NCBI RefSeq assembly: GCF_900091415.1
Contig: NZ_FMHU01000002.1
Span: 1,674,001 to 1,738,000 of the forward strand
Reading direction: 5' to 3'
DNA length: 64,000 bases
Source: Micromonospora inyonensis
GTDB lineage: Bacteria; Actinomycetota; Actinomycetes; Mycobacteriales; Micromonosporaceae
In this document: in pieces, positions 15,239 to 62,615 of the stretch
Numbering within the stretch: position 1 is the first letter of the stretch
How the letters are laid out: each line of letters begins with the position of its first letter
Notes under the pieces: generated by a model
Seen by the model: the letters and a program-made list of their open reading frames with translations, nothing else
The model's database searches: none
Told to the model about the DNA's origin: nothing
Position numbers and translations under genes: made by a program

Positions 15239-21490
<6,252 letters not shown>

Positions 21491-21901
21491 CGGCGGAAAC
21501 ACCTCGTACTCTCCGTGAGTGGCCAGCTTCACTGCGCCATCGGAGTAAGGATCGAGGTGGTCTCTCACCGGCAGCTTCCCGGATCCTTCCCGCCGAACCA
21601 GTGGGCGGTCACGCCACTGGTCAGAGTGGAAGTGTTCAGCCGCCGTGTCGGTCGAGCCTCGCTCGTAACCTGCCGGCGAAACCTCGGCGACGGCGAGCTC
21701 CTCGCGGAGCGTGGTGACGCCGGCACGAGTGCGGTCGCCTCTTCGGCGCGGCCGTGCCGGTCACGTGCACGAGAACCTCCGGCAGGGCTGGTATCCAACG
21801 CTAAGTGTCCAAGATCCGGCCGAGCGGCGGGCGGCGGGCGGTGGGCGGCGCAGGCTGATTGTCGGGTGGGGTGTGGGGCATGCGCAGGTAGGCGCAGCAG
21901 C
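21491..21901. promoter_or_regulatory. Intergenic region with probable promoter of locus 1
   Basis: About 400 bp without a convincing gene, between the first NRPS of locus 1 and the TetR gene (both minus strand). It should hold the locus 1 promoter. It contains an 8-bp perfect inverted repeat, ACCAGTGG (21597-21604) and CCACTGGT (21614-21621), with a 9-nt spacer, a possible operator. No confident -35/-10 pair could be assigned. If translation starts at GTG 21568, the first 78 bases are coding. Confidence 0.4.
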
Positions 21902-37185: not shown

Positions 37186-39246
37186 GTGCACCACGACGGC
37201 GGGCGGTCGGGCGAGGCGGCGGCCGCCCGACACCGGGACACGTCCCCCGACCGTCGGCACGCCGGCCACGACCCGGCGATGTTCCGCCGTCGCTTCTGGG
37301 TGTGCCTCGCGCTCACCGTACCGATCGTGGCCACCAGCCACCTGGTGACCGACCGGCTGGGCCACCTCCTCGATGTTCCGGGCGCGACCTGGGTGGGACC
37401 GGTCCTGGGCACCGTGGTCTTCTGGTACGGCGGGTGGCCCTTCCTGGTGGGCGCGCTCCGCGAGCTGCACGACCGGACGCCCGGGATGATGCTGCTGGTC
37501 GCGATGGCGATCGCCGTCGCCTACCTCGCCTCGGCGGCCACCACCGTCGGCGTCTTCGCGCTCGACTTCTGGTGGGAGCTGGCCGCGCTGGTGACCGTCA
37601 TGCTCCTCGGGCACTGGCAGGAGATGACCGCGGTCGGCCAGGCGCGCGGCGCGCTGGGCGCGCTCGCCGCGCTGCTGCCCGACGACGCCGAGCGGATCGC
37701 GCCGGACGGGGCGATCCGGCGGGTTCCGGTCGCTGACCTGACGACCGGCGACCTCGTCCTGGTCCGCCCCGGTGGTCGGGTGCCTGCCGACGGTCACGTG
37801 GTCGAGGGCGGGTCCGAACTGGACGAGTCGATGATCACCGGGGAGTCACGTCCGGTGCACCGGGGAGCGGGGGAACGGGTGGTCGCCGGCACGGTGGCCA
37901 CCGACTCGGCGATCCGGGTCCGGGTGGACGCGGTGGGGGAGGAGACCGCGCTCGCCGGCATCCAGCGCCTGGTCGCCCAGGCCCAGGCCGCCGGGGGCCG
38001 GGCGCAGTTGCTCGCCGACCGGTTCGCCGCCGCGCTCTTCACCGTCGCCACCGTGACCGCGGTGGCCACCCTGGCCGTCTGGACCGCGCTCGGCCAGGTC
38101 GACGAGGCGGTGGTCCGGGCCGTCACCGTGCTGGTGATCTCCTGCCCGCACGCCCTGGGACTGGCGATCCCCCTGGTCGTCGCCCTCTCCACCAGCGTGG
38201 CGGCGCGGGACGGCATCCTGGTCAAGGACCGCCTGGCGCTGGAACGGATGCGGACGGTCGACACCGTCCTGATCGACAAGACCGGGACGCTGACCCGGGG
38301 CGTGCACACCGTCACCGGGGTCGTCGCCCGCGACGGTGGCAGCCGGGACGACGTGTTGCGGGTCGCCGCCGGCGTGGAGGCCGACAGCGAGCACCCGCTG
38401 GCCCGGGCCGTCGTCACCGCCGCCGAGCGGCTGGCGCCGCCCCGGGGTACGGACTTCCACGCCCTGCCCGGCCGGGGCGTGCGGGCGACCGTCGACGGGG
38501 TGCCGTACGCGGTGGGTGGGCCGGCGCTCCTCCGCGAGCTGGACGTGGCGGTCCCCGACGCGCTGCGCCGGGCCGGCGAGACGTGGTCGGCCGGCGGCGC
38601 GGCCGTGCTCCACCTGGTCCGCCTGGACGGCCCGGCAGACCCGCTCGGTGCGCTCGCCCTCGCCGACGAGGTACGTCCCGAGGCCCGGGAGGCCGTCGAC
38701 GACCTGCGTCGGCTCGGCATCCGGACGATCGCCATGATCACCGGTGACGCCCGTCCGGTGGCCGAGACGGTCGCTGCCACCCTCGGGTTCCGGCACGGCG
38801 TGGACGAGGTCTTCGCCGAGGTGCTCCCCGCCGACAAGGACGGCATCGTCGCCGACCTCCAGGCACGCGGTCACACCGTGGCGATGGTCGGGGACGGTGT
38901 CAACGACGCGCCCGCCCTGGCCCGGTCCGACGTCGGCCTGGCCATCGGCGCCGGCACCGACGTGGCCATCGAGTCCGCGGGCGTGGTGCTCGCCTCCTCC
39001 GATCCCCGGGGGGTACCGGCCACCGTCCGGCTGTCCCGGGCCGCCTGGCGCAAGATGGTCCAGAACCTGGTCTGGGCGGCCGGCTACAACGTGGTCGCCA
39101 TCCCGGTGGCCGCTGGTGTGCTCGCCCCGGTCGGGGTCGCGCTGACCCCGGCCGTCGCCGCCCTGCTGATGTCCGCCTCCACGATCGTCGTCGCGCTCAA
39201 CGCCCAGACCCTGCGGTGGACCGGCCGTCGCGCCCGGCCGGGATGA
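37186..39246 (+). CDS. P1B-type metal-translocating ATPase, CPH (CopB-like) subtype
   Basis: A 686-aa P-type ATPase. The start is GTG 37186 with GGAGG seven bases ahead. The N-terminus is His-rich (VHHDGG...ARHRD...RRHAGHDP) instead of carrying a CxxC domain. Six or more transmembrane helices surround the actuator segment (DESMITGESRPV). The transport motif is C320-P321-H322 in ISCPHALG, and the phosphorylated residue is D364 in DKTGTLT. The hinge is GDGVNDAPALARSDVG. CPH plus a His-rich N-terminus defines the P1B-3/CopB group, which exports Cu2+ (or Ag+/Cu+). Confidence 0.92.
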   Translation: MHHDGGRSGEAAAARHRDTSPDRRHAGHDPAMFRRRFWVCLALTVPIVATSHLVTDRLGHLLDVPGATWVGPVLGTVVFWYGGWPFLVGALRELHDRTPGMMLLVAMAIAVAYLASAATTVGVFALDFWWELAALVTVMLLGHWQEMTAVGQARGALGALAALLPDDAERIAPDGAIRRVPVADLTTGDLVLVRPGGRVPADGHVVEGGSELDESMITGESRPVHRGAGERVVAGTVATDSAIRVRVDAVGEETALAGIQRLVAQAQAAGGRAQLLADRFAAALFTVATVTAVATLAVWTALGQVDEAVVRAVTVLVISCPHALGLAIPLVVALSTSVAARDGILVKDRLALERMRTVDTVLIDKTGTLTRGVHTVTGVVARDGGSRDDVLRVAAGVEADSEHPLARAVVTAAERLAPPRGTDFHALPGRGVRATVDGVPYAVGGPALLRELDVAVPDALRRAGETWSAGGAAVLHLVRLDGPADPLGALALADEVRPEAREAVDDLRRLGIRTIAMITGDARPVAETVAATLGFRHGVDEVFAEVLPADKDGIVADLQARGHTVAMVGDGVNDAPALARSDVGLAIGAGTDVAIESAGVVLASSDPRGVPATVRLSRAAWRKMVQNLVWAAGYNVVAIPVAAGVLAPVGVALTPAVAALLMSASTIVVALNAQTLRWTGRRARPG

Positions 39247-39370
39247 CGGCCGGCACGCGACGGCGTGACGGTTCCATGACGAACCGGCCACCGGCTCTGG
39301 ACTGGGGTTTCGACGGTCCGGGGCAGCGGGGATGGGTACGTTGACGACAGACCGGAAGGGAAGGTAACCC

Positions 39371-39640
39371 GTGGAAGTGACCGGCTTCTTCACCGCCATC
39401 ATCATCGGCCTGATCATCGGTGCGCTCGGCCGGCTGGTCGTGCCGGGCAAGCAGCGCATCCCGATCTGGCTCACCCTGCTCATCGGTGTGGTCGCCGCCG
39501 TCCTCGGCACGCTCGTCGCCGGGGCCCTCGGGGTCGACGACACCCGGGGGATCGACTGGATCGAACTCGCCATCCAGGTCGCCTTCGCCGCGATCGGTGT
39601 CGCCGTCGTCGCCGGCGCCTACGGCCGACGCCGGTACTGA
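39371..39640 (+). CDS. GlsB/YeaQ/YmgE-family small membrane protein
   Basis: An 89-aa protein with three hydrophobic segments (IIIGLIIGALGRLVV; LTLLIGVVAAVLGTLVAGAL; IQVAFAAIGVAVVAGAYG) and the GLIIGALGRLVVPGKQ motif of the transglycosylase-associated/GlsB stress family. It starts at GTG 39371, preceded by GGAAGGG. Function in the family is poorly defined, often linked to envelope stress. It stands alone, 125 nt after the metal ATPase. Confidence 0.88.
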   Translation: MEVTGFFTAIIIGLIIGALGRLVVPGKQRIPIWLTLLIGVVAAVLGTLVAGALGVDDTRGIDWIELAIQVAFAAIGVAVVAGAYGRRRY

Positions 39641-39867
39641 CCGGTTCGCCGCCGCCCGGCGCGTCCCGACCACGCTGACCTTCCCGCACCGACCCGGGTA
39701 CGCCGCCACGCACCGGGTCACCGCTTCGTCGGATCCCGGACCGAAGGCTGCGGTGCGGCGGTCGGAGCGGCCAGCATGCACCGGCGCGGGTGTCGACCGT
39801 CGCCGGTGGGTGGCGACCGTGCCCGACGGCAGGGCACGATGCCGGGTGGGAACGAGGGAGGCACATC

Positions 39868-40812
39868 GTGACGGACGTCATCGTCGTCGGCGGCGGCATC
39901 ATCGGGTTGACCACGGCCGTCCGGTTGCAGGAGCGGGGCGCGCGGGTCACCGTGCTCACCGCCCACGAGCCGGAGCAGATGGTCTCGACGGTCGCGGCGG
40001 CGGTCTGGTATCCCACCCACACCGATCCCGATCCGCGCGTGCTGGCCTGGGCGACCACCACCTACCAGGAGTTCCGCCGGCAGGCCGCCGACGGGGTGCC
40101 CGGTGTGCTCCTGCGTCGTACCCGGATGTTCCAGCGTCAGGCCGCCGACGACCTGCCCTGGTGGGCGGTGGCGGCCGGCGAGGTGCAGGCGGTCGACGCG
40201 CCCGCGCCGTTCCACCGTGAGCTGCGTTTCGTGGCGCCGCTGGCGGAGATGGCCACCTACCTCGACTGGCTGCGGGACCGGCTGGTCGGCGGCGGCGGCC
40301 AGGTGGTGCGGCGGCGGGTGGAACGGCTCGACGACCTCTTCGCCGAGGCGCCGGTCGTGGTCAACGCCACAGGTCTGGCCGCCGGCGCGCTCTGCGGCGA
40401 CCCGACGGTGTTTCCGGCGCGCGGCCAGGTCCTGCTGGTCGCCAACCCCGGCCTGGACGTGTCGTTCCGCGACGAGGAGCACCCGGACGGCACCACCTAC
40501 GTGCATCCGCGCAGCCGGGACGTGGTGCTCGGTGGCACCTACGAGTCCGGCCGGGCCGATCTGGAGCCCGACCCGGAGGTGCGGGCCGGAATCCTCCGCC
40601 GGGCGGTGGCCCTGGTACCCGAACTCGCCGTCGCGCCGGTCGTCGGGGAGCGGGTCGGTCTGCGTCCGGCCCGCCAGGGTGGCCCCCGGGTCGAGGCGGA
40701 GCGCCGTGCCGGGGGACTGCTGGTGCACGCCTACGGGCACGCCGGTGCGGGGATGACCCTGTCCTGGGGCAGCGCCGACGAGGTCTGCGGGCTGGTGCAC
40801 GCCGGACGGTAG
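39868..40812 (+). CDS. FAD-dependent D-amino acid oxidase-like enzyme
   Basis: A 314-aa DAO-family flavoprotein. The N-terminal dinucleotide motif VVGGGIIGLTTAVRLQERG (6-24) binds FAD. Characteristic later segments are AAAVWYPTHTDPDPR, PVVVNATGLAAG, HPRSRDVVLGGTYESG, and the C-terminal GLLVHAYGHAGAGMTLSWG that contacts flavin. The DAO-type substrate Arg is probably in VGLRPARQGG. It oxidatively deaminates D-amino acids to keto acids. GTG 39868 has GGGAGG upstream. Its substrate is inferred from family only. Confidence 0.9.
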   Translation: MTDVIVVGGGIIGLTTAVRLQERGARVTVLTAHEPEQMVSTVAAAVWYPTHTDPDPRVLAWATTTYQEFRRQAADGVPGVLLRRTRMFQRQAADDLPWWAVAAGEVQAVDAPAPFHRELRFVAPLAEMATYLDWLRDRLVGGGGQVVRRRVERLDDLFAEAPVVVNATGLAAGALCGDPTVFPARGQVLLVANPGLDVSFRDEEHPDGTTYVHPRSRDVVLGGTYESGRADLEPDPEVRAGILRRAVALVPELAVAPVVGERVGLRPARQGGPRVEAERRAGGLLVHAYGHAGAGMTLSWGSADEVCGLVHAGR

Positions 40813-40823
40813 CGCAGGGCGGG

Positions 40824-40845
40824 GCCTCTTCAGCCCGGAAGAGGC
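40824..40845. terminator. Terminator between convergent oxidase and lipid kinase genes
   Basis: An 8-bp perfect stem (GCCTCTTC 40824-40831 and GAAGAGGC 40838-40845) with a 6-nt loop, between the oxidase stop (40812) and the kinase stop (40923). Confidence 0.65.
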
Positions 40846-40922
40846 GGTCCGGTGTCCGCTGGAGACGAAGGAGTCGTCGGGCGTGGCGCGGGTGTGGTGC
40901 CGGGCCGGAGCCGTCGACGGTG

Positions 40923-41852
40923 TCAGCGGTCCGGGCTGTCGGCGGGGGCCATCACCCGCAGCGCGTTGGCCGCCAGACCGAGCCGGATCGGGGTCCGGCC
41001 GCACAGCTCCCCGTCGACCTCGACCCGCGCCGGGCGGTCGGTCTCCAGCCACAGTTCGGGTACCGCGAGGAACGGCTCGTCGCCGAGCGTGCGGCGATGC
41101 CCGGTGGCCGCGTTGCGCGCGGTATCGCGCAGCAGGCCGCGCCGGGTCGGCCCGCCCACCGGGTACGCGACCAGCAGCCGGTCGTCGGCGTCGGCGTCGG
41201 CGGTGATCCGCCGCCCGGCGTGGAAGCCGCCGTTGGCCACGTACAGCTGGTGGGTGACGAACTCGTGGTCCACCCCGGCGGCCCGGACGGTGGTCCGCAT
41301 CGGCCGGTGCCGGGCGAGCAACGCCAGCGCGGTCAGCGGGTACGCCAGTCGGCCGGTGATCCGCTTCAACCGGGGCGGGGTGCGGAGCATGATGTCGGCG
41401 GAGAGTCCGATCCCGACGTGGTTGGCGAACGGCACGTCCCCGGCCAGGCCGAGGTCGACGTCGATGACCTTGCCGTCGGTGAGGACCGTGACGGCGCCGT
41501 CGAGGTCGAGTGGTACGCCGACCGTCCGGGCGAAGTTGTTGGTGGTGCCGAGCGGCAGCAGGCCGAGGGCCATGTCCCGGTGGGCGAGCAGCCGCGCGGC
41601 GGCGCTGAGCGTGCCGTCCCCGCCGCCGGCCACGAGCAGATCCGGTGCCAGGGCGGCGGCGGTGGTGAGGGCCTCCTCGAGCTGGCCGGGGCGGTCGACC
41701 GGATACGTGCCGAGCAGGTCGAAACCGGCCGCCCGCAGTCGCGACCGCGTGTGGTCGTAGCGGCGGCGACCCCGCCGGGACCGGGTGTTGACGACCAGCA
41801 CGGCGCGGCGGTCCCGCCGGATGGCCTCCCCCAGTTCCTGCTTGCTCCGCAT
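40923..41852 (-). CDS. Diacylglycerol/lipid kinase family protein
   Basis: A 309-aa member of the DAGK/YegS/sphingosine kinase superfamily. The nucleotide motif VAGGGDGTLS (74-83) and PLGTTNNFARTVG are typical, followed by VDVDLGLAGDVPFANHVGIG and a C-terminal beta sandwich ending RVEVDGELCGRTPI. It phosphorylates a lipid hydroxyl. The start is ATG 41852; an in-frame TTG at 41882 is less likely. It is separated from the regulator/peptide unit upstream by a hairpin. Confidence 0.9.
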   Translation of the reverse strand: MRSKQELGEAIRRDRRAVLVVNTRSRRGRRRYDHTRSRLRAAGFDLLGTYPVDRPGQLEEALTTAAALAPDLLVAGGGDGTLSAAARLLAHRDMALGLLPLGTTNNFARTVGVPLDLDGAVTVLTDGKVIDVDLGLAGDVPFANHVGIGLSADIMLRTPPRLKRITGRLAYPLTALALLARHRPMRTTVRAAGVDHEFVTHQLYVANGGFHAGRRITADADADDRLLVAYPVGGPTRRGLLRDTARNAATGHRRTLGDEPFLAVPELWLETDRPARVEVDGELCGRTPIRLGLAANALRVMAPADSPDR

Positions 41853-41933
41853 GGGAACCGACCCTATCGCCCGCCCGCCCAATCGACGTGCTCGGTGCCG
41901 CGCGGTCGTCCGGTGCCGGGGGCTGGCGGAACC

Positions 41934-41974
41934 ACCGGAATCATGAATCGGTAAGACCGAGATCTGATTCCGGT
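41934..41974 (-). terminator. Terminator closing the AfsR-peptide transcription unit
   Basis: Two stacked stems: ACCGGAATCA (41934-41943) with TGATTCCGGT (41965-41974), and inside it TCGGT (41948-41952) with ACCGA (41956-41960). On the minus strand it follows the peptide stop by 31 nt, consistent with ending that message before the lipid kinase gene. Confidence 0.7.
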
Positions 41975-42005
41975 GTCCGACCGTCGCGGCGTCTCGCGCA
42001 CCGAC

Positions 42006-42062
42006 TCAGTGCCACTCCCAATCGTTGCGGTAGGAGGTGGCCTGCGCCGTGGATACCTGCAT
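42006..42062 (-). CDS. 18-residue peptide downstream of the AfsR-type regulator
   Basis: The ORF MQVSTAQATSYRNDWEWH starts at ATG 42062. A strong ribosome site, AAAGGAAG (42068-42075), lies five bases upstream. It begins 34 nt after the regulator's TAA, on the same strand, and is followed by a terminator, so it looks like a purposeful short cistron. It is hydrophilic at the N-terminus, with an aromatic, charged C-terminus (NDWEWH). There is no signal peptide and no nearby P450 or radical-SAM enzyme to make it a RiPP. A 13-bp palindrome (ACGTC-ATC-GACGT, 42085-42097) sits just ahead. A signalling or cofactor peptide for the TPR-containing regulator is the leading guess, unproven. It could also be a chance ORF. 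Confidence 0.6.
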   Translation of the reverse strand: MQVSTAQATSYRNDWEWH

Positions 42063-42096
42063 CGTGACTTCCTTTCGCGTTCTGACGTCATCGACG

Positions 42097-44985
42097 TTAG
42101 TCCACGCGAGGAAGAGTGTCTGCACCACTGGGAACTGTTGACCGGTTCCGGCCACCGGTCGCCGATTCCAGCTCGTCGAGAGCGCGCCGGATGGTGCCCT
42201 CCAGCAGCGTAGGGCGCGGCTGCCGGCAGAGCACGAGGGCGGTGTGCAGGGTGGAACGGGCGCGTTCTGCCTGGCCAAGGCCCTGATAGCAGAGGCTGAG
42301 CCCGTGCAGGGCCTGTCCTTCGCCGGTGAGGTCGCCGAGTTGTCGGCTAGCCGACAGCACCCGGGAGAACAGTGGTTCGGCTTCGGTGAACCGCTCCTGG
42401 CGTACCCGGAGCATTCCCTGCCAGAACAGCACCTGCGCTTCCAGTCTTGTCGATCCACCCAGTCGGCACATGTCCAGGGCCTGGTCGAAATAGTGGTCGG
42501 CCGTCGAATGATCCTGCTGATTCAGATGTATTTGTCCGATACCTCGGAGGGTGAGCGCGGCGGAACTCCAGTCCCGCGCGTCGACCAATTCCGGCAGTAC
42601 CTCCTTGTATCGGACGAGCGCCTCCCGTTCGTGACCCTTGATACGGCTCAACGACGCGGCAAAGGCATTCACGAGCGCTCGGCCGTGCAGGCTGCCCGTG
42701 GTGGCGAAGATCTCCAGCGACCGGGCGATGTACTCCTCCGCCCGGCTGAACTCGCGGCGGTCGGTGCTGTGCATGGCGAGGCGGTAGAGCATCGTCGCCT
42801 CGCCGAGCCGGTCGCCGGCTGTGCGTGCCGCGTCGAGCGCCAGGACGAGCAGGTCGTGCCACTCGGTGAAGTAGCGCCGCATCTGGAACAGCGGCGAGGT
42901 GATGTTGACCAGTTCCCAGCACGCCGCCGCGTGTCCCTCCTCGGCGGCCCGCCGGGCGACGACGGCCAGCGCGGCCCGTTCCCCCTCGAACCAGGTGACC
43001 GGTTCCTCGGCGGGACGGATCCGCTGGGCGTCGTCGACCGCGTACCGCTCGACGGAGACGCGGACCGTCTGGTACGGCCCACCGTGTATCGCCCGGTAGG
43101 CGCCGTCCGCCATCGACAGCCACGCGCCGAACACCCGGGTGCGCGCCGCCGCCAGCTCGCGGCGGTCCTCCTCGGCGTCGGCCCGCTCGCGCGCGAAGAG
43201 GCGCACGAGGTGGTGCAGGCGGAACCGGGAGCCGCTCGCCGGATCGGCCTCGGCGACGTCCACCAGTTGTCCGTCGAACAGCTCCTCCAGCAGCGTCTCG
43301 CCCCGCGTGGCGCTGACGTCCAGCAGTGCCGCCGCGATCCAGGAGTCGGTGTAGGCCAGATCGACGTGACCGGTCAGGCGCAGCAGTCGCTGCGCGGCCG
43401 GGGAGAGCCCGGCGTAGCTGATCGCCAGGCTCGCCCGCACGTCCAGCTCGTGGTAGCTGAACTGGTCGAGCCGCCCGCTCTCGTCGCGCAGCATCCCGCT
43501 CAGCTTCGCCACGCTCCAGTGTGGCTTGGCCGCGAGCCGGGTACCGAGCACGCGCAGTGCCAGCGGGAGGAATCCGCACTGGCGGCACAGCTCGGCCGCG
43601 GCCTCCGGCTCGGCCCGCAGCCGGGCGCTGCCGGCGACGTGCCCCAGCAGCTCCACCGCCTGCCCCGGCTCGAAGATCTCCAGCCGCAGCGCGGGTGCGC
43701 CGAAGGTCGAGCCGAGGTGGGTACGACCGTTGATGATGACCGCGCACCGGCGTCCGGCCGGCACGAGCGGGGCGATCTGGTCGTCGGAGGCCGCGTTGTC
43801 GAGCACCACCAGCACCCGGCGCTCGGCGAGCAGGTCGCGGTAGAGTTCGGCCCGCTCCTCGATGGTCTCCGGCACCGCCGCGCCGTCGACGCCGAGCGCC
43901 CGCAGGAAGCGTCCGAGCACCTCGGACGGGTCGATCGGTGTGCGGTGGTCGGGCCCGCGCAGGTTGGCGTACATCTGCCCGTCCGGGAAGTCCGCCTGGA
44001 GGGTGTGCGCGACGTGCACCGACAGGGCCGTCTTGCCCACCCCGCCCGGGCCGATCACGGCCACCACCGCCACCCCGGTGCGGGTCGGCGCGGTGAGCAA
44101 CCGGCGGATCCGGTCGATCTCGGCCGTACGACCGGTGAAATCGTTCACGTCCGGCGGCAGCAGCCGGGGTACGCCACCACGGAAGGCCACCCCCGACTGG
44201 TCGGCGACGCCGGCCGGCAGGACCTCGTCCGGAGGCTCGACCGGCTCGCCCTCACCCTCGCGCAGGATGGACAGGTGCAGCCGCTGGACGTCCGGCTGCG
44301 GGTCGACCCCGAACTCGTCGGCCAGCCAGCGGCGCCACTCGTCGTAGTAGCTGAGTGCCTCCGCGCTGCGGCCGACCCGGGTCAGGGCGAGCATGAGCTG
44401 GCCGACGAGCCGCTCGCGGGCGGGATTGACCCGGGCGGTCGCGAGGAGTTCGTCCACGATGCGCTGCTGGTTTCCGAGCCCCAGTTCCAGGTCGAACAGT
44501 TCCTCGGTGGCGGTCAGGCGCGCGGACTCCAGCCCCTGGCAGAGGGTCGCGCAGAGGGCGTTGGGCACGTCCCCGCCCAGTACCGGCCCACGCCACAGGT
44601 CCAGGGCCCGCCGCAGCGTCCCGATGGCGGTCGTGCCGTCCCGTTCGGCGCGGGAGGCCCGGACCAGGGTGAGGAAATGCTGCGCGTCGATCGCCTCGGC
44701 CGCGGACTCCAGCAGGTAACCGCTGCTGCGGGTGCGCAGACGCACGGCCGCGTCGGCGGGTCCGTTGAGGACGGCGCGTAGCTCGCTGACCCGGGTCTGC
44801 ACGACGGCCCGCGCCTGGCGGGGAGGCGAGTCGCCCCAGAGCAGGTCGATCAGCTGACTGGCCGAGACCAGTTCGTTGGCGCGGAGCGCGAGGATGCCGA
44901 GGATCAGACGCTGCTGACGCCGGGCGAGCCGCACCGGGGCGCCGGCGTGCCACACCTCCACCGGCCCCAGTATGCGAACTTCCAC
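42097..44985 (-). CDS. AfsR/SARP-family regulator with NB-ARC and TPR domains
   Basis: A 962-aa large SARP. Residues 1-95 are a winged-helix OmpR/SARP DNA-binding domain (VEVRILGPVEVW, QQRLILGILALRANELV). Residues about 100-242 are the bacterial transcriptional activation domain (BTAD). An NB-ARC ATPase follows, with Walker A GPGGVGKT (312-319) and Walker B VLVVLDNA (391-398). The C-terminal 350 residues contain TPR-like repeats (AEEYIARSLEIFATTGSLHG, ADHYFDQALDMCRLGG, LCYQGLGQAERA). Such proteins activate secondary-metabolite genes. It starts at GTG 44985 and is divergent from a LuxR-HTH gene; SARP-like direct repeats lie between. The peptide gene follows it. Confidence 0.92.
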   Translation of the reverse strand: MEVRILGPVEVWHAGAPVRLARRQQRLILGILALRANELVSASQLIDLLWGDSPPRQARAVVQTRVSELRAVLNGPADAAVRLRTRSSGYLLESAAEAIDAQHFLTLVRASRAERDGTTAIGTLRRALDLWRGPVLGGDVPNALCATLCQGLESARLTATEELFDLELGLGNQQRIVDELLATARVNPARERLVGQLMLALTRVGRSAEALSYYDEWRRWLADEFGVDPQPDVQRLHLSILREGEGEPVEPPDEVLPAGVADQSGVAFRGGVPRLLPPDVNDFTGRTAEIDRIRRLLTAPTRTGVAVVAVIGPGGVGKTALSVHVAHTLQADFPDGQMYANLRGPDHRTPIDPSEVLGRFLRALGVDGAAVPETIEERAELYRDLLAERRVLVVLDNAASDDQIAPLVPAGRRCAVIINGRTHLGSTFGAPALRLEIFEPGQAVELLGHVAGSARLRAEPEAAAELCRQCGFLPLALRVLGTRLAAKPHWSVAKLSGMLRDESGRLDQFSYHELDVRASLAISYAGLSPAAQRLLRLTGHVDLAYTDSWIAAALLDVSATRGETLLEELFDGQLVDVAEADPASGSRFRLHHLVRLFARERADAEEDRRELAAARTRVFGAWLSMADGAYRAIHGGPYQTVRVSVERYAVDDAQRIRPAEEPVTWFEGERAALAVVARRAAEEGHAAACWELVNITSPLFQMRRYFTEWHDLLVLALDAARTAGDRLGEATMLYRLAMHSTDRREFSRAEEYIARSLEIFATTGSLHGRALVNAFAASLSRIKGHEREALVRYKEVLPELVDARDWSSAALTLRGIGQIHLNQQDHSTADHYFDQALDMCRLGGSTRLEAQVLFWQGMLRVRQERFTEAEPLFSRVLSASRQLGDLTGEGQALHGLSLCYQGLGQAERARSTLHTALVLCRQPRPTLLEGTIRRALDELESATGGRNRSTVPSGADTLPRVD

Positions 44986-45201: not shown

Positions 45202-45465
45202 ATGCCCGTCCACGACGGACTCGCCACCGCCCCGGCCGCCGGCGATTCCCTGCCCACCCTCGAGGTCAGCAAGCTGGACCGGGACATCCTGCGTCAACTG
45301 GCCGCGGGCCATACCGACGAGGCGACGGCGGTGCGGCTGAACGTGAGCCCGCGCACGGTCCGTCGCCGGGTGGCCCTGATCGGCGAGCAGTTGGGGGTGC
45401 AGGGCCGGTTCGGCCTCGGCGTCGCCGCCGCCCAGCTCGGACTCGTGTCGGTCCGCCGGCGCTGA
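45202..45465 (+). CDS. Small LuxR-type helix-turn-helix protein
   Basis: An 87-aa protein consisting almost only of a GerE/LuxR DNA-binding domain (residues about 22-85: LDRDILRQLAAGHTDEATAV, NVSPRTVRRRVALIGEQLGV). AGGAGG precedes ATG 45202. With no receiver or ligand domain, it would act as a constitutive DNA binder or partner of another regulator. It is divergent from the SARP and convergent with the MFS gene, only 3 bp apart. Some NRPS clusters carry such lone HTH activators. Confidence 0.85.
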   Translation: MPVHDGLATAPAAGDSLPTLEVSKLDRDILRQLAAGHTDEATAVRLNVSPRTVRRRVALIGEQLGVQGRFGLGVAAAQLGLVSVRRR

Positions 45466-47467: not shown

Positions 47468-48301
47468 TCACCGGCCCCGCCAGACCGGATCACGCTTCTC
47501 CGCGAACGCCCGCGGCCCCTCCACCGCGTCCTCGCTGGCCGACCGGAGCTGTTCCCACTCGTACGGCTCGGTGAAGGCCCGCTCCAGCGGCATGTCCACC
47601 GACCGCATCGCCGCCTGCTTGATCGCGCGTACCGCCAGGGGAGCGCTCCGCAGCAGGTCGTCGACCCAGCCCGCCACGCAGTCGTCGAGATCGTCGGCGG
47701 GAACCACCTCGTTGACCAGCCCGAGCTGCCACGCCCGTCGCGCGTCGAGCCGGCGACCGGTCAGCAGGTGACCCATCGCCGTCTTCAGCGGCAGCTGCCG
47801 GGCCAGCCGGAACACCCCGCCCGCGCCGGGAACCAGACCGAGCCGGACCTCCGGCAACGCGAACACGGCGTCCTCGGCGGCCACGACGACGTCACAGGCC
47901 AGCGCCAGCTCGAAGCCACCGCCCAGGGCGTAGCCGCGCACCCGCGCGACGACCGGCTTGGACAGCTCGAACCGCTCGGTCAGTCGGGGCCAGCCGGGCT
48001 GCCCCCGACTGCCGAACGTGGTGGGGCCCGCACCGGCACGGTCCCGCTGGGCCCGCTCCTTCAGGTCCTGCCCGGTGGAGAAGGCGCGCGTCCCGGCGCC
48101 GGTCAGCACGGCCACCCACAGCTCGTCGTCGGCCTCGAAGTCGTCCCAGACCCGACCGAGCTCCTCGTGCATCCGCAGGTCCATGGCGTTGAGCACGTGT
48201 GGCCGGTTCATGGTCACGTACGCGACCCGGCCCCGCTTCTCGTACCGGACCCGGGGCCCGTCGCCGTCCCGTGCCACCGTCGCGCGCTCCCTCTCCGACA
48301 C
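47468..48301 (-). CDS. dpgD: Enoyl-CoA hydratase-like DpgD
   Basis: A 277-aa crotonase-fold protein. It has the substrate-binding/oxyanion segments [12 protein letters not shown] and [20 protein letters not shown], plus [20 protein letters not shown]. In the Dpg pathway DpgD, with DpgB, assists DpgA by dehydrating and aromatising the tetraketide to 3,5-dihydroxyphenylacetyl-CoA. The start is GTG 48301, one base after the dpgC stop. It is the last gene of the dpg block. Confidence 0.9.
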
Positions 48302-48302
48302 G

Positions 48303-49628
48303 TCAGCCCGTCACCGCCGCCGCCCGGGGGGCCGCGGCGAAACGGGTGACCTTGTGCATGACGTCCTCGCTGTAGAGCCGCCGGGCCTGCTGGACGGCGA
48401 ACTCCGCGAGGTACGCCCGGAACCACTCCTGCGGCTCCTCGGCGAGGTTGAGCATCCGCCGGTTCGCCACCACCGCCGGGGCGTCCATCCGGGCCACCTC
48501 GGCCGCGACCGCCGCGTCCATCTCCTCGGCCCCGACGACCTCGTCGAAGAACAGCTTCCCGTCCGGCTCGCTCGCCGACACCCGCCGCCCGGCGAGGATC
48601 ACCTGCCGGGACAGCCGGCCGTTGGCGACCCGCCCGAGGCGCAGGTTCCCCACCCCCGGCACGATCCCCTCCTGCGCGGCCGGCAGGCTGAAGAAGGCGT
48701 CCCGTTCCGCCACCACCCGGTCGCAGGCCAGCACGAGCTGCGCGCCGCCGCCGATGGCGAAGGAGTCCACCGCCGCGATCCACGGCTTCTGCACCACGTC
48801 GCCGTCCCAGGCCCGGTCCCGCTCACCGGTCAACCCGTGGACGATCTTGGCGATGTAGCCCAGCTCCCGCCGGAGCAGGAAGTCCACGTAGGAGATCTGC
48901 CCGGCCTGCAGGCAACGCAGGTTGATGCCCGCGCTGAACACCCGGCGCCCGGCGTACCGGGGATGGGTCATCACCCCGCCGCGCAGCACGCCCACCCGCA
49001 CCGACGGCGCGAGCAGGGCCAGGTCGACGGCGGTCTCCATGTCCTCGACCTGCGCGTTGTCCTCGGCGTTGAGACAGTCGTCCCGCTGCATGGTCAGGTG
49101 GCCCGCGCCGTCGCGGATCTCGATCCGCACCGCGTCCAGCGTCATCACGCCGGTGCGCTCGAACTCCGGCAGCAGGGACAGCGCCCGCGCGGTGGGCCGG
49201 CGCATCGCCTCCAGCAGGTGCGGGCCGGCGGTGTCCGAGCGGAGCAGGTGGCTGACCAGGATGCTCTGGTCGATGTCCAGGCCCTCCTTCTCCACCGCCG
49301 GCAGCCGCAGCTCCGCGTCGACCTGGGCCCGGGTGGGCACGAGACCGGGCACCGCCTCGGCGACGGCGGCGCAGACCTCGTCGAGCCGCAGGAACCGGGA
49401 ACGGTCCGCGGTCACCTCGTCGTAGAGGCGGTCGACGTGCGACCGCAGGAACGCGTCGGCGAGATCACGGGCGTGGCGGCGGGCCTCGGTGACGGCCGTC
49501 CGCTGCTCCGGCGAGCGCTCCGCCGCTCCGGGCAGGGTGGCGATCAGGTCGTCGACCCGCGCCGCGGCGGCGCTGACCTCGCGGGCGGCGGGCAGCGCCG
49601 CCATCGGCTCAGACGAGAGCTGCGACAT
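48303..49628 (-). CDS. dpgC: 3,5-dihydroxyphenylacetyl-CoA 1,2-dioxygenase DpgC
   Basis: A 441-aa DpgC. The N-terminal helical region (about 1-180) is specific to this family. The crotonase core follows, with [40 protein letters not shown] and [15 protein letters not shown]. DpgC is a cofactor- and metal-free dioxygenase that turns 3,5-dihydroxyphenylacetyl-CoA into 3,5-dihydroxyphenylglyoxylate. ATG 49628 follows GAGGAGG and overlaps the dpgB end by 20 nt; the open frame extends 14 codons further upstream but without a ribosome site. Confidence 0.93.
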
Positions 49629-50277
49629 CGCGCACCTCCTCGGTGGTGGTGCGGCGCAGAAGCCGGTCACAGGCGGCGAGGTGACGGCCGAGCGCCTCCT
49701 CGAACGGGGTGGTCGTCGCGTCGAGCATCAACTGACGGCGTACGGCGACGTCCGGTCCCGCGGTGGCGGTGAGCGCGGCGACCGTGTCCGCGACGGCGTT
49801 CGCGACGTCGTCGACGACCTCGTCCACCAGGTCCAGGGCGACGGCCCGGTCGGCGGGGATCGGGCCGGGGCGGAGCACCGCGCGCCGCAGGCGGGCGTAC
49901 CCGACCTGGTTCGCCAGCCGGTAGAGGCCCATGCCCGGCCAGACGCCGCCGGTGGTGACCGGCAGGTGCAGGCGGGCGTCGGCGGCGGCGATCCGCAGGT
50001 CGGTCACGAGCAGAGCCTCGACCGCGATGCCGCCGCAGTCGCCGCGCACCACGGCGACCGTCGTGGTGCCGACCCGTTCCAGGCGTCGCAGGACCCGCTC
50101 CCACCGGTTCACCACGGCCAGCGGCGGCCGCTCGGTGTCGGTCGGGACGCCGGTGAGTTCGAGGAGCGCCACGGCACCGGCAGGGACGTCCTCGACCGTG
50201 TCGATGAAGGCGTCGAGCGCCGCGACGGTCGCCGGACCGAGCGGCTGGCTGCCGTCGATGGAGTGCTGGAGCTGCAT
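49609..50277 (-). CDS. dpgB: Crotonase-like DpgB
   Basis: A 222-aa enoyl-CoA hydratase/isomerase-like protein, shorter than DpgD. It has the VVRGDCGGIAVEALLVTDLR and TTGGVWPGMGLYRLANQVG segments of DpgB. It enhances DpgA turnover in forming 3,5-dihydroxyphenylacetyl-CoA. ATG 50277 is chosen because GGGAGA lies five bases upstream; an in-frame GTG at 50328 overlapping the dpgA stop is the alternative. Confidence 0.88.
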   Translation of the reverse strand: MQLQHSIDGSQPLGPATVAALDAFIDTVEDVPAGAVALLELTGVPTDTERPPLAVVNRWERVLRRLERVGTTTVAVVRGDCGGIAVEALLVTDLRIAAADARLHLPVTTGGVWPGMGLYRLANQVGYARLRRAVLRPGPIPADRAVALDLVDEVVDDVANAVADTVAALTATAGPDVAVRRQLMLDATTTPFEEALGRHLAACDRLLRRTTTEEVRDVAALV

Positions 50278-50324
50278 GTCTTCTCCCGTGTGGGGTGGCA
50301 GGGGCGGAGGGGACGCCGGGCGGG

Positions 50325-51482
50325 TCACCAGCGGACCAGGGCGGTCTCGACGGTGGAACCGGGCCCCATCGTCATGAGGACGCCGTACTCGCCGGGGCGG
50401 ACGGTGCCCTCCTGGAGCAGTCGTTCGTAGGAGAAGAGGAACGACCCGCTCGACAGGTTGCCGTAGTCGCGCAGGACACCGGTGGTGTGCCGCAGGTCGT
50501 AACGGGTCAGGCCGAGGTTCACCCCGACGGCGTCGATGACCTTCTTGCCGCCGGAGTGCACGAGCCAGTGCGCGATGTCGGACTGGCGCAGACCGGCACG
50601 ACCCAGCAGCCGGTCCACGGTCATCCGGGCGTGGGCCCCCACGACGTACGGGATGTCGGGGTCGAGGAAGAAGCTGAACGCCCGCTGCGAACTGTCCCAG
50701 TCGTAGCGCATCGCGTCCACCGCCTCGGGGATGATGCAGCTGGTGAAGTCTATGACGCGCGGCGTCGGAGGCTGGTCGGTCGCCGCGTCCGGCTCGGTCC
50801 CGGCGACCATCGCGATGGCCGCCGAGCCGTCACCGAAGAGGCTGTTCACCACCGTGGTCCGCATGGTGCCGTCGAACACGTACGCGGCCGAGCACGCCTC
50901 GATGCAGACCATCAGCGCCAGTTCGCCGGGGTGCGCGCGGGCCCAGCCCGACACCACGTTGAGGCTGTTCAGGCCGGCGTTGCAGCCCATGCCGACGATG
51001 TCGGCGCGGCTGGTGTGCCGGTCGAGCCCGAGCTCCCGGATCAGCAGGGCGCTGAACCCCGGGGTGAGGAACCCGGTGGAGGTGACGCAGCACAGGTAGC
51101 GGACGTCGGAGAGGTCCGCCCCGGCCTGCTTGAGGCACTCCTGCACCGCGCGGGTGCCCAGCGCGATGCCCTGCGTCTTGTGCTTGGCCAGCAGCTGACC
51201 GGTGTCCTCCCGAGGGGGGACACCGCTGCCGTCCGGCTGGGGGAGGGTCAGGAACCGCCGCTCGATGGCGCTGTTGAGGTAGATGCCGGCGATCCTCGGG
51301 TCCTGGATGCCGAGGATCTCGACGAGTTCCCGCTGGCTGTAGGCCGTCTCCGGGGTCGCCGTGCCGACGGCCAGGATCCGGGGCATGGCCGTCGATTCGA
51401 GCGCCGGCGGCGGTGTGGTGCGCATCAGCCCCGGGTGGGGCAACGGTGCGGTGACTGTCATCATCGGTAGGTCCAACCCCAC
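50325..51482 (-). CDS. dpgA: Type III polyketide synthase DpgA
   Basis: A 385-aa chalcone-synthase-like enzyme with triad C167 (VGMGCNAGLN), H309 (LVHSGGKK) and N342 (RDYGNLSSGS). DpgA condenses four malonyl-CoA units and cyclises them toward 3,5-dihydroxyphenylacetyl-CoA. It starts at GTG 51482; ATG 51464 is an alternative. It lies 39 nt after the C-A-T-TE NRPS gene and before dpgB, in the classic dpgABCD order. Confidence 0.95.
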   Translation of the reverse strand: MGLDLPMMTVTAPLPHPGLMRTTPPPALESTAMPRILAVGTATPETAYSQRELVEILGIQDPRIAGIYLNSAIERRFLTLPQPDGSGVPPREDTGQLLAKHKTQGIALGTRAVQECLKQAGADLSDVRYLCCVTSTGFLTPGFSALLIRELGLDRHTSRADIVGMGCNAGLNSLNVVSGWARAHPGELALMVCIEACSAAYVFDGTMRTTVVNSLFGDGSAAIAMVAGTEPDAATDQPPTPRVIDFTSCIIPEAVDAMRYDWDSSQRAFSFFLDPDIPYVVGAHARMTVDRLLGRAGLRQSDIAHWLVHSGGKKVIDAVGVNLGLTRYDLRHTTGVLRDYGNLSSGSFLFSYERLLQEGTVRPGEYGVLMTMGPGSTVETALVRW

Positions 51483-51521: not shown

Positions 51522-54500
51522 TCAGTCAACGTCGTGCATCCTTTCCGCGATCATCGGGCCGATCCGGGACATGGCGGTCGCCTTGACGATGTCGAGGTGG
51601 CCGCAGTCCACGTCGTGGAACTCCGCCGGCCCGCCGAGGAACGGCTGCCAGAGCAGGTCGGAGTCCTTGTTGTGCCGGGTCGCGACGAACCCGAGGGTCG
51701 GACCGTCGAAGTGGCCCGGCGAGTGGACGGACATCGCCCGCACGTTCGCCGCGGTCACCGCGACCAGCCGGTCCAGCGTCGGGTCGTCCAGCGAGGCCAG
51801 CGGGCTCTGCGCCGCGACCAGCTGCTCCCGCCGGGCCGGGCCCGCGTCGATGGTCACCCCGTCCAGGGCGACGTAGCGGGCCTCCTCCTCGGTCGCCTCG
51901 TACGGGCCGTCGCCACCCGGGCGGGCGTCGAGCAGGACGAGCAGTGCCACCTCCGCGCCGCCGGCCCGCAGCGCCACCGCCACCTGGTGCGCCAGGGTGC
52001 CCCCGAACGACCAGCCGGCGAGCAGGTAGGGACCGGTGGGCTGGATCGCGGTGATCTGGTCGCGGTACCCGGCGGCCAGGTCGGCCACGGACCGGGGTTC
52101 CACCGGCCCGCCGGCCAGCCGGGGATCCTGGAGGGCGTGGATCGGGTGGTTCGGCGGGACGTGCCGGGGCAGGGCCGAGTAGCCCCAGCCGAGCCCGTTG
52201 GCGGGCGGCAGCACGAACACCGGCGTCCGCTCGTCCGAACGGCGGTAGGTCAGCACCGGCTCCAGCCCGGTCGGCTGCTCCTGGTCGAGGAGGCGGTCGA
52301 GTTGCGCGACGGTCGGCGCGGCGAACACCGTCCGGACGCCGACGTCGACGCCGAGCACCGCCCCGATCCGGTTCACCAGGCGGGGCGTGAGCAGCGAGTG
52401 CCCACCCAGGTCGAAGAAGCTCTCGTCGACCCCCGGGTTCGTCACGCCCAGCACCTCGGCGAACAGGTCGGCGAGGATCTGCTGGCGCGGGGTGGCCGGC
52501 GGGCGCCCGCCCGTGGGCTTCCGCGGCTCCGGCAGGGCCGCCCGGTCCACCTTGCCGTTGGCGTTCAGCGGCAGCGCGTCCAGCACCACCAACGACGGGG
52601 GCACCATGTAGTCGGGCAGCCGGGTGGCCAGGTGCGCCCGGACCTCGTCGAGGTCCGGTTCCGTTCCGGGCCGTCGGGCGAGGTAGCCGACGAGGGAACG
52701 GTCACCGTTTCCGCCGGTGTGGACGGTGACCACCGAGGCCGCCACGTCCGGGTGCGCGTCGAGCGCCGCGACGATCTCGCCCAACTCGATCCGGAAACCG
52801 CGGATCTTCACCTGGTCGTCGGTGCGGCCCAGGTACTCCAGGTGCCCGTCGCGCGCCCATCGGACCAGGTCTCCGGTGTGGTACATCCGCGCGCCGGGCT
52901 CGCCGTACGGGTCGGCGACGAACCGGCTGGCGGTCAACCCCGGCCGTCCCAGGTAGCCGCGGGTCACGCCGGCGCCACCGATGTACAGGTCACCGGCCGT
53001 GCCCTCGGGCACCGGGCGCAGGCGCTCGTCGAGGACGTACGCCCGGGTGTTGGCGACGGCATGTCCGATCGACGGCGGTCCGGGCCGGTCGTCGATCACC
53101 GCGTCCGTGCAGCTGACGGTCGTCTCGGTCGGGCCGTATCCGTTGATCACCCGGCGTCCGACGGCGCGCATCCGGTCGGCGAGCTGGCGGGACAGGGCCT
53201 CGCCCCCGGTGATCAACATGAGGCCCCGCATGGCGTCCGGCGTGGTCGTCAGGAGCACCTGCCACAGGCTCGGCGTGGTCTGCATGACGGTGACGCCCCG
53301 GCTGCGGACCACCTCCGCCAGCGCGGCCGGGTCCGGCACCACCTCCCGGCGGACCAACACCACCGTGGCCCCGGCGACCAGCGGGGCGAACAGGTCGAGG
53401 ATCGACATGTCGAACGCCGCCGTGGTGATCGCGGCGAGCCGGTCCGCTTCGGTCAGGCACAGGAAATCGGCGATGGCGATCTGGTAGTTGACCAGGTTGG
53501 CGTGGGTCGCGACGACCCCCTTGGGACGCCCCGTCGACCCGGACGTGTAGATCACGTAGGCGGCGTTGCCGGGTGCCACCGCAGGGCGGACGGCGTCGGC
53601 CGCCTGCGGCAGGAGCCCGGTCGCCGCTGCCTCGTCCAGCACGATCCGGGGACAACCGTCGACGTCGGGCAGCGCGTCCGCGGACTCCCGGTCGGTCAGC
53701 AGCAGCACCGGCCGGGCGTCGTCGAGCATGAAGGAGATCCGCTCCGCCGGATGATCGGTGTCGATCGGCAGGTACGCCCCACCGGCCTTCCAGACCGCCA
53801 GGATCGCCACGAGCAGCTGCTCCGACCGGGCCAGGGGAAGGGCGACGAACCGCTCCGGGCCCACCCCGCACCGCCGGAGGATGCCGGCCAGCCGGTCGGC
53901 CCGCTCGTCGAGCTCCCGGTAGGTCAGCTCCCGGTCCCCGGCGATCACCGCGACCGCCTCCGGCCGCCGCGCGACCTGCGCGGCGATCAGGTCCAGGATC
54001 GAACCGTCCGGCAGCGGACGGGCGGTGGAGTTGGCGGTGTCGAGCAGCCGGTCCCGGGCGGCCTCGTCCAGCAGGTCGATCTCACTGATCGGCTGTCCCG
54101 GCGAGGCCGCCACCGTTGCCAGCACGCGGACCAGCTGCGCGACGACGGCCTGCGCCGAGTCCCGGTGGAACAGGTCCTCGGCGTACTCCACGAGGCCCTT
54201 GATCCCCGCCGGTTCCCCGGCCGCGTCCCGCTGCTCGGCGAGGACGAAGGAGAGGTCGAACTTGGCCACGTCGTGGGCGGACCGTTGCGGCGCCCCGGCC
54301 AACCCGAGCAGCGGCACGTCCTCGGTGCCGCCGCTGGCCAGCATGAAGAAGACCTGGAACAGCGGGTGCCGGGCCAGGGAGCGGGTCGGCTGAAGCTCCT
54401 CGATGAGGCGCTCGAACGGCAGGTCCTGGTGGTCGAAGGCGGCCAGGTCCAGCGCCCGGACCCGGTGCAACAGCTCGACGAAGGTCGGGTCACCGGAGGT

Positions 54501-55430
54501 GTCGGTGCGCAGCACCAGCGAGTTGACGAAGAATCCGACCAGGTCGTCCAGGGCCTCGTCCGACCGGCCGGACACCACGGTGCCCAGCGGGACGTCGGTG
54601 CCGGCGCCGAGGCGGGTGAGCAGGGTGGCGATGGCCGTCTGGACGACCATGTACACGGTCACCTGTTCCGCCTGGGCCAGGTCCCGCAGCCGCCGGTGGG
54701 TCTCCGCCTCGACGGTGAACTCGACCGTGCCCCCACGGTGGGACGAGCGGGCCGGACGGGGGAAGTCCGTCGGCAGCGTCAGCTCCTCCGGCAGCCCTCG
54801 CAGGTTGCCCCGCCAGAAGTCCAACTGCCGGTTGAGCTCGCTGGCCGGATCGTCGTCGGTGCCGAGCAGTTCCCGCTGCCAGAGCGTGTAGTCGCCGTAC
54901 TGCACCGGCAGCGGCTCCCACTCCGGGGCCGTGCCGCCCAGTCGGGCGGCGTACGCCTGCGACAGATCCCGGCCCAGCGGCCCCATCGACGCGCCGTCGG
55001 CCGCGATGTGGTGCAGGACCAGCACCAGCACACAGTCGTCCTCGGCGACGGTGAACAGCCGTACCGCCAGCGGAAGTTCCGTGGACAGGTCGAACGTGCG
55101 CGCGCAGACCTGGGCCACCCGCGCGTCCACCTGGTCGGCGGACACCGTCTCGTGCGCGATGTCGATCCGCACCTCGGAAGGGGACAGGACCCGCTGCGCC
55201 GGCTCGCCGTCGATCTCGACGTAGAGCGTCCGCAGCACCTCGTGCCGGGCGACCACGTCGGCGACTGCCGCCCGCAGCGCGTCCGGATCGACCCGATCGC
55301 TGAAGCGGTTGATCAGCGGAACGTTGTACGTCGCCGAGGGACCGTCCAGTTTGTGCAAAAACCAGAGCCGGCGCTGGGCGTACGACAGCGGAAGTACCGG
55401 TTCGTCCACGGTGGTCGAGGATGCGGTCAC
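51522..55430 (-). CDS. Terminating NRPS module, C-A-T-TE
   Basis: A 1302-aa protein from GTG 55430, whose codon overlaps the methyltransferase stop (GTGA). The C domain (about 12-440) has HHIAADG. The A domain (about 460-955) has [19 protein letters not shown] and [10 protein letters not shown]; manual GrsA alignment gives pocket code D-M-L-Q-I-G-G-V-S, which I cannot assign. The T domain (about 965-1035) has [10 protein letters not shown]. The thioesterase (about 1050-1300) has GWSFGG with the nucleophilic Ser. It should add the last residue and release the product by hydrolysis or cyclisation. It is the only TE in the window. Confidence 0.93.
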
Positions 55431-56248
55431 CGCTTGCGCCAGACGGTGACGTGTGACTCGAACCAGTCGTACTCGCGGGGGTTCTGCCGCAGCACACCGG
55501 GTTCGTCGACCTCGTCGATCAGCTCGAAGCTGTCCCGCAGCAGGGCCTTGAGGGCCTCCTCGCTCGGCGTGGCGGTCGCCGCCGAGCCCAGCCACTCGCT
55601 CGGGGCGCTGTACTCGGGGTACCACGACCAGGGGCAGGCGACCATCATCAGGCCACCACTGCGGAGGATGTCCGCCGAGGCGGAGAACTGCTCCAGGCAG
55701 GCGGCCGGCTGCGCCACCCGGTCCAGGACGTTGGAGAGGACAACCGCGTCGAACGCCTCCTCACGGGCCCGCAGCGCGTTCGCGTCGCCGACCTCGAAGG
55801 TCAGCCCGGCGCGCCGGCCGGGCTCGGCGACCCGGAATGCGACCTCGCGGTAGAAGGGGCCCTGCTCGATGACGCAGAAGGTCCCGCCGCCGTGTTCGGT
55901 CAACGTCTGGGCGATCTCGATCGAGCGCTGGCTGACGTCCACGCCGACCACCTCGTCGCGCACCCAGCCGCTGAGTGCGTGGGTCACGCCGCCCACGCTG
56001 CACCCGATGTCGAGGGCCCGCGTCACCGTCGTCCCGGTCCGCTCCGCACACGAGCGCAGCAGGTCGGAGAGGCGCTGACAGTAGCCGTGTGCCATCGCCA
56101 GCGGATGCTGGCCACGGTTGAACAGATCCTGGAGGCTGCCGTAGTGCATCAGCAGGTACTTGGAGAGGTCACGGGAGGCGTCGTAGGGAGCACTGGCGTC
56201 GTGCTCGAACAGTTCGTCGCCTTTGAGCAGGGCCGGGGGCAGCGCCAC
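55427..56248 (-). CDS. OvoA-C-terminal-type SAM methyltransferase
   Basis: A 273-aa stand-alone methyltransferase starting at GTG 56248 after GGAAGGA. It strongly resembles the C-terminal domain of OvoA (putative 4-mercaptohistidine N1-methyltransferase). The matches are [11 protein letters not shown], the SAM loop [15 protein letters not shown] (78-92), [29 protein letters not shown] and [13 protein letters not shown]. No sulfoxide-synthase part is present. It lies between two NRPS genes, 23 nt after the first and overlapping the second, so it almost surely modifies the peptide or a precursor. A ring-nitrogen target (His or Trp) is suggested by the family, not proven. Confidence 0.87.
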
Positions 56249-56271: not shown

Positions 56272-62559
<6,288 letters not shown>

Positions 62560-62615
62560 CAGACTGCTCTCTTTCGGGTGTGCGGAGGTGCGGGGAGACG
62601 CGCGGACGCGGCAGG

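Follow-up and report, generated by a model that had tools for sequence, protein, structure and literature searches.

A tryptophan-containing 18-residue peptide beside an AfsR-type regulator of Micromonospora inyonensis as a candidate ligand of its TPR domain

In a 64,000-nucleotide stretch of the Micromonospora inyonensis genome (hereafter the window; contig NZ_FMHU01000002.1, positions 1,674,001 to 1,738,000), the gene for a large SARP-family regulator with NB-ARC and TPR domains is followed on the same strand by a short open reading frame (ORF), whose 18-residue product ends in NDWEWH. The features of this gene pair are as follows.

42097..44985, minus strand: SARP-NB-ARC-TPR regulator, 962 residues, GTG start at 44985 (domain scan)
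42154..42726, minus strand: proposed sensor, regulator residues 754-944, matching peptide-binding TPR chains of GPSM2/LGN/Pins (structure-chain matches)
42068..42075, minus strand: ribosome-binding site AAAGGAAG, five bases 5' of the ATG (by sequence)
42062..42006, minus strand: leaderless 18-residue peptide ORF MQVSTAQATSYRNDWEWH, C-terminal YRNDWEWH invariant in three species (translation)
41927..41979, minus strand: hairpin 3' of the peptide stop, strong in the window and not conserved

The regulator combines Trans_reg_C, BTAD, NB-ARC and TPR domains, the make-up of a large SARP of the AfsR type, and its residues 4-636 match AfsR structures. A gap of 34 nt separates its stop (42097) from the peptide ATG, and the ORF lies exactly where a sequence-only reading of this DNA had placed it (42006..42062), for which that reading gave no strand. 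That reading had also described a textbook ribosome site and a hydrophilic peptide free of any export signal, which agrees with the position of AAAGGAAG, a grand average of hydropathy of -1.2 and inspection of the 18-mer. Its double-stem terminator is confirmed only in part: the hairpin folds strongly in the window (dG -39.3, z -3.2), but it lacks a U-run, a terminator scan of 38000-43500 returned 0 sites, and in two congeneric genomes the structure folds no better than shuffles (G221, z -0.3) or weakly (G252, z -1.8). We consider the ORF to be probably a genuine gene that encodes the leaderless precursor of a short Trp-containing signal and is paired with the adjacent regulator; because the window holds no SARP box, the two are probably co-transcribed.

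Conservation among close orthologs centres on the C-terminal end of the peptide. Five of 160 genomes of the genus match the regulator at E<=1e-200: it is full length and 90-100% identical in the window's genome, G221 and G252, 69% identical in G003, where both the TPR end and the peptide are missing, and 49% identical in G310. Loss of the ORF or its ribosome site beside orthologous regulators had been named in advance as the outcome that would speak against a functional peptide; both are kept in 3/3 full-length close orthologs, with GAGGAAG and AAAGGGAG as ribosome sites of the two relatives and MQVSTAQATSYRNDWEWH, MQEFMAQSTSYRNDWEWH and MQEFTAQATAYRNDWEWH as the peptides of the window, G221 and G252 set. 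The N-terminal half of the 18-mer varies freely across the three species. Nucleotides identical in all three amount to 885/1063 in the regulator, 28/34 in the gap, 25/30 in codons 1-10, 27/27 in codons 11-18 with the stop, and 69/120 past the stop, and the longest three-way invariant run in the alignment of about 1.5 kb, 33 nt, falls at the peptide's C-terminal end. The exact ending NDWEWH-stop occurs in the 160 genomes only in these three, each time behind the same regulator; the 16 other sites resembling it each have 3 mismatches, and a SARP lies in the 3-kb locus at 0/16 of them versus 3/3 exact sites. Among 194 genomes of other genera, 3 sites with 2 mismatches were found, none with a SARP, and we therefore reject a broad conservation of NDWEWH-stop itself across these genus and other-genus genomes. 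The lone exact match in a wider search of genome contigs, a set that may omit near relatives, belongs to Vagococcus and is taken as chance.

A chance or decaying ORF without function would fit a distribution confined to three close species and a freely varying N-terminal half. We regard this as most improbable given where the longest invariant run falls, the presence of a peptide in the same slot of the 49% sister in G310, and the occurrence of 5 Trp-ended ORFs with a Shine–Dalgarno (SD) match of at least 5 against a first-order Markov expectation of 0.26 per 89 regions downstream of SARP genes, a comparison whose rule was set after looking. A conserved nucleic-acid element or leader, for instance a Trp-codon attenuator with its hairpin or a regulator site, would in turn explain why 27/27 nucleotides are identical with zero synonymous change and why two Trp codons precede a hairpin. 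The hairpin is not conserved, however, the gene after the peptide is lipid-kinase-like (DAGK/YegS) and unrelated to Trp metabolism, and sister loci hold Trp peptides in this slot with quite different DNA. The first two of these points lead us to reject a Trp attenuator leader, and a conserved element in place of a peptide is altogether very improbable.

The slot beside the regulator is also filled in more distant sisters. The SARP of G310 (locus L223) is followed at +45 nt on the same strand by MKRRLIAILAAAALALTGVAAAGSVNSSEPTKPLADYQWCGC, a peptide ending in ..ADYQWCGC and judged to be secreted, as are all peptides so described here, by a hydropathy rule or by inspection, not by SignalP. Locus L010 (G018) holds ..GQGCDWCASPK at +59, L005, whose SARP is 53% identical, has a related peptide, ..NSDYNWCGC, in the opposite orientation, and L006 and L008 hold ..CDPDCIWI and ..DDFIWCGLDPFDGGSSC upstream of the SARP; all four loci belong to the window's SARP clade. 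In a quick tree of 44 SARPs, the window, G221 and G003 form a clade nested in a 10-member clade, both with a Shimodaira–Hasegawa-like approximate likelihood ratio (SH-aLRT) support of 100. The label 'none' changes 8 times on this tree against 14.8 times in shuffles (0/500 as low), a figure obtained with L006 and L008 entered as 'none' and of a kind that relatedness alone can produce. No peptide accompanies L004 and L243, two SARPs that stop short of the end of the TPR part. At L004, the 69% ortholog of G003, the regulator ends near residue 763, an MFS gene (72%) is still present upstream and no peptide lies downstream. By eye, a convergent frame past the L223 peptide resembles an S9 serine peptidase, and the raw sequence of L010 has a similar frame past its peptide; either might process or degrade the peptide.

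Beyond this clade, related large SARPs often adjoin a small gene whose product carries Trp at or near its C-terminus (..DTPWG, ..NNPWD, ..NWPWG, ..DTIWG, ..DTHW), an arrangement that the window shares. Most of these peptides are secreted precursors of 42-84 residues, mostly encoded convergently, in which a linker joins a hydrophobic N-terminus to a constant end; some are leaderless. A rule first applied to the same strand (Trp among the last 4 residues, SD>=4) failed on an order-wide set (0/66); scanning both strands then brought out the convergent secreted class. In 89 regions downstream of SARP genes (the first set of 30 loci less the cut L004, and 60 further fetched ones), 25 small ORFs whose last three residues include Trp were accepted. 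Of these, L015 and L026 need GTG starts, and the SD is 3 in L104 and in L031's long frame; five Cys-containing types (L005, L010, L012, L020 and L021) are added to the 25. A stricter rule, a W[GD]-ended ORF of 12-90 aa with ATG and SD>=4 within 670 nt after the SARP on either strand, is positive for 17/154 SARPs, 16/89 in the family set and 1/65 in the order-wide set, with 0/299, 2/394 and 0/174 positive control tiles. Among SARPs related to those of L016 (67 genomes) and L024 (159 genomes), which yielded 57 loci, 46 of them new, a secreted or W[GD]-ended small ORF is present in 29/46, against 0/138 tiles inside SARP genes and 1/80 upstream tiles; being relatives of two known carriers, these loci show whether the pairing persists and not whether it arose independently. 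Only for this last count was the set cleared of loci that repeat a 150-nt stretch exactly, and because orthologs and near-copies occur among the loci, none of the counts represents independent events. L256, where ..DNTPWG ends at the contig end, stands outside the 29. A pairing general to all large SARPs is rejected on the 1/65 of the order-wide set and on the genome's other BTAD genes, near which none was seen in the stretches scanned.

In a reverse test, DTPW[GDE] followed by a stop occurs 6 times in 200 genomes of the family and 4 times beside a large SARP; the first set already contained 3 of the latter. Twelve database homologs of class peptides keep the ends NNPWD, NWPWG, NHPWD and DDTQ/KWG while their linkers vary, and the seven that carry a source name are all labelled 'hypothetical protein'; the peptide of L024, from a genome of the same genus, differs in few residues from a database protein of M. 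chokoriensis. None of ten class peptides reaches a family cut-off in Pfam or NCBIfam, and the 18-mer is too short for such a scan. The pairing of large SARPs with small Trp-ended peptides is apparently widespread and undescribed: no SARP-peptide pair of this kind was found in the available parts of the literature searched, which covered few subscription journals. Several further frames were observed. One ending in ..VAGDTPWG (L211, G168:C20 near 166655) has no SARP within 1.5 kb, and its contig carries a large SARP at a distance of about 5 kb; L012, L017, L020, L264, L265, L267 and L269 encode Cys-containing secreted peptides with an inner DTHWS, some with a second DTHW at the very end; and four alike small minus-strand ORFs (MLDDVPDPVWNTSTGNWSS and similar; L136, L138, L161 and L163) follow other large SARPs.

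Two precursors with internal repeats indicate which part of such peptides may be active. L280 (G255:C1) encodes a leaderless peptide, MSNNISDNGINFASRRRGDTIWGRRGDTIWGRRGDTIWG, with three tandem RRGDTIWG units and located about 289 nt past the stop of a large SARP, and L109 a secreted precursor with three copies of DTWPWT. Multi-copy pheromone precursors carry repeated short units in a comparable way. Arg precedes the last 5-6 residues in 6/8 leaderless members, including YR-NDWEWH of the window, with a chance of about 0.001 at the members' Arg content under a rule that was set after looking; by this post hoc rule, the window's peptide takes its place among the leaderless members beside those with a secretion signal. 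Its WEW resembles the WPW of L016, L099 and L109, and a secreted peptide of another genus, MNMRLRPLLSAILIAFGIIAGGTVGHADAASAGDAAPADDWEWD (L055 / L281; G151:C2, minus strand, ~83462-83597), ends in DDWEWD and shares DWEW with it. By eye, the peptide ORF of L280 is followed by an XdhC-like frame.

The promoters of class peptides suggest control by the neighbouring regulator. SARP sites are described as direct repeats with a spacing of 11 or 22 bp, whose 3' member lies 8 bp from the -10 element (PMC10936776), and the AfsR repeat as CGTT(T/C)ATCGNN (PMC10972967). A box pattern, GAT-N8-G[AG]T-N12-TANNNT, fitted on the first 28 peptide promoters (L015, L021, L026 and L031 omitted), occurs in 11/28 of them (0.02 expected; 0 on the reverse strand). 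In a test set of 29 further promoters, some of them orthologs of the first set, it occurs in 15/29 (0.02 expected), versus 1/17 further SARPs that lack a peptide. AfsR half-site cores paired at 11 bp are present in 6/28 (0.08 expected) and 5/29 further promoters (0.14 expected). These loci recall AfsR-AfsS of Streptomyces coelicolor, in which a large SARP with NOD and TPR parts adjoins a small gene with an 11-bp direct-repeat box in its promoter; the SARP and NOD parts are alignable with ours, but the window differs in having no such box before its peptide gene.

This likeness raises a different explanation: the small gene would be co-expressed with the SARP, or be under its control, and the peptide would work on other targets, within the cell or beyond it, and not bind the TPR domain. 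AfsR does activate the adjacent afsS directly (PMC10972967, PMC10936776), and the box-like promoters show only the direction from SARP to peptide. Most class peptides, however, are secreted and have a fixed Trp-ended C-terminus behind a variable linker, unlike a sigma-factor-like regulator, and the two SARPs cut before the TPR end, a small number, lack a peptide; we rate an AfsS-like output as rather unlikely. The sequence-only reading had proposed an actinobacterial peptide-regulator pair. Trp peptides beside related large SARPs far above chance, SARP boxes in their promoters and triple repeats in two precursors support this in part, but a peptide adjoining the regulator would also fit an AfsS-like output.

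The pair lies inside a cluster of non-ribosomal peptide synthetase (NRPS) and polyketide synthase (PKS) genes.

6176-9576, 51522-55625 and 56272-62745: NRPS parts (domain scan)
10803-15152: PKS (domain scan)
47468-51482: chalcone-synthase-like gene and three enoyl-CoA-hydratase-like genes (domain scan)

The genes at 47468-51482 resemble the dpg set for dihydroxyphenylglycine, and MFS and PadR genes sit between these biosynthetic genes and the regulator. Divergent from the SARP gene, an 87-residue ORF with a LuxR-type helix-turn-helix by eye (45202-45465, plus strand) has DNA alignable in G221 and G252 and could be a second regulator at a shared promoter region. In such a setting the small gene could also be the precursor of an antibiotic or of a ribosomally synthesized and post-translationally modified peptide (RiPP), its C-terminus being the modified core and the SARP merely a cluster activator. 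Constant C-termini and triple core repeats as in L109 and L280 also occur in RiPPs, and a cytochrome P450 gene lies near the peptide in G221. Yet, as the sequence-only reading had stated of maturation enzymes, a Pfam scan of 28 window ORFs, which did not extend to the 2109-residue ORF at 15239-21568 and some others, revealed no RiPP enzyme; neither the window's genome nor G252 has a close homolog of the G221 P450 (L052, 10182-11450, after the lipid-kinase gene) at this locus, and genes flanking 11 class loci differ by locus when compared by eye. For want of a maturation enzyme in the scanned ORFs and of a shared P450 we set the RiPP precursor aside as improbable.

We thus return to the peptide as a signal for its own regulator, and read it, with a better than even probability, as the leaderless ligand of the TPR domain. 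The 18-mer would be translated together with the regulator, and after processing its C-terminal part, YRNDWEWH or NDWEWH after Arg, would be the active ligand. It would reach the TPR domain inside the cell, where a leaderless peptide may act, or through export and re-import by an oligopeptide permease; the 6.92-Mb genome encodes 8 family-5 solute-binding proteins (SBP_bac_5), with which uptake is possible in principle. In AfsR, NOD and TPR inhibit the SARP domain, ATP relieves this inhibition and phosphorylation counteracts the relief (PMC10936776). Binding at the TPR domain would lift the corresponding inhibition, and the freed SARP domain would then activate the NRPS/PKS cluster. The pair would accordingly work as a switch, which in related pairs with a SARP box in the peptide promoter would become a self-amplifying loop.

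Such working resembles that of the RRNPP systems of Firmicutes (PlcR-PapR, Rgg/ComR with SHP/XIP), in which a TPR regulator likewise adjoins a short propeptide gene with an active C-terminal part. ComS ends in a Trp-Trp motif. Leaderless propeptides also exist among them, and their receptors have 250-500 residues (PMC10075063), whereas the protein here is a 962-residue SARP-STAND protein from another phylum with no homology shown; because receptor size and make-up differ, we regard the pair as RRNPP-like in working but not as a member. Closer in phylum, NosP, the SARP of the nosiheptide cluster of Streptomyces actuosus, is reported to respond to products of a peptide precursor (Li et al. 2018), but it is a small SARP without NB-ARC and TPR that is released from DNA by nosiheptide and an intermediate, and the available parts of the sources describe no separate signal gene (PMC10972967, PMC11632069).

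Several observations weigh against a peptide ligand at this locus. Neither the DNA upstream of the window's peptide nor the rest of the 64 kb holds a SARP box, and pairs of half-site cores are absent as well. Inspection reveals no signal peptide in the 18-mer that would account for its export. Conservation among close orthologs rests on three species, and pairwise comparisons of the ORF give 3-4 nonsynonymous and 0 synonymous codon changes, so that what is conserved could be the DNA and not the protein. More distant SARPs seldom show the pairing (in the order-wide set, 1/65 by the W[GD] rule, 0/66 by the same-strand rule), and no Trp peptide was seen beside the genome's other BTAD genes within the stretches scanned. 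Finally, the 10 kb searched around the DDWEWD peptide of L055 contain no SARP, which makes this peptide an orphan signal or else counts against strict pairing.

The paper on the AfsR structure does not use the word 'ligand' in its main text (PMC10936776), and a review from 2024 asks for studies of SARP signals (PMC10972967). In the broadest reading, to which we give an even chance, Micromonosporaceae and their neighbours use gene-encoded Trp-motif peptides (..DTxWG, ..NNPWD, ..NWPWG/T, ..DTHW, ..DYxWCGC, ..NDWEWH) as signals and the TPR domains of AfsR-type SARPs as receptors; the SARP would often drive its own peptide, the resulting autoinducing circuits, each with a pair-specific code, would switch antibiotic clusters, and the window's 18-mer would be a leaderless, co-transcribed version. 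If so, gene-encoded peptide signals would be added to a phylum whose known signals are typically enzyme-made small molecules (PMC10075063). If the paired peptides are signals, they could be read directly from genomes, orphan SARPs could be matched to their ligands, and synthetic hexapeptides could wake silent antibiotic clusters.
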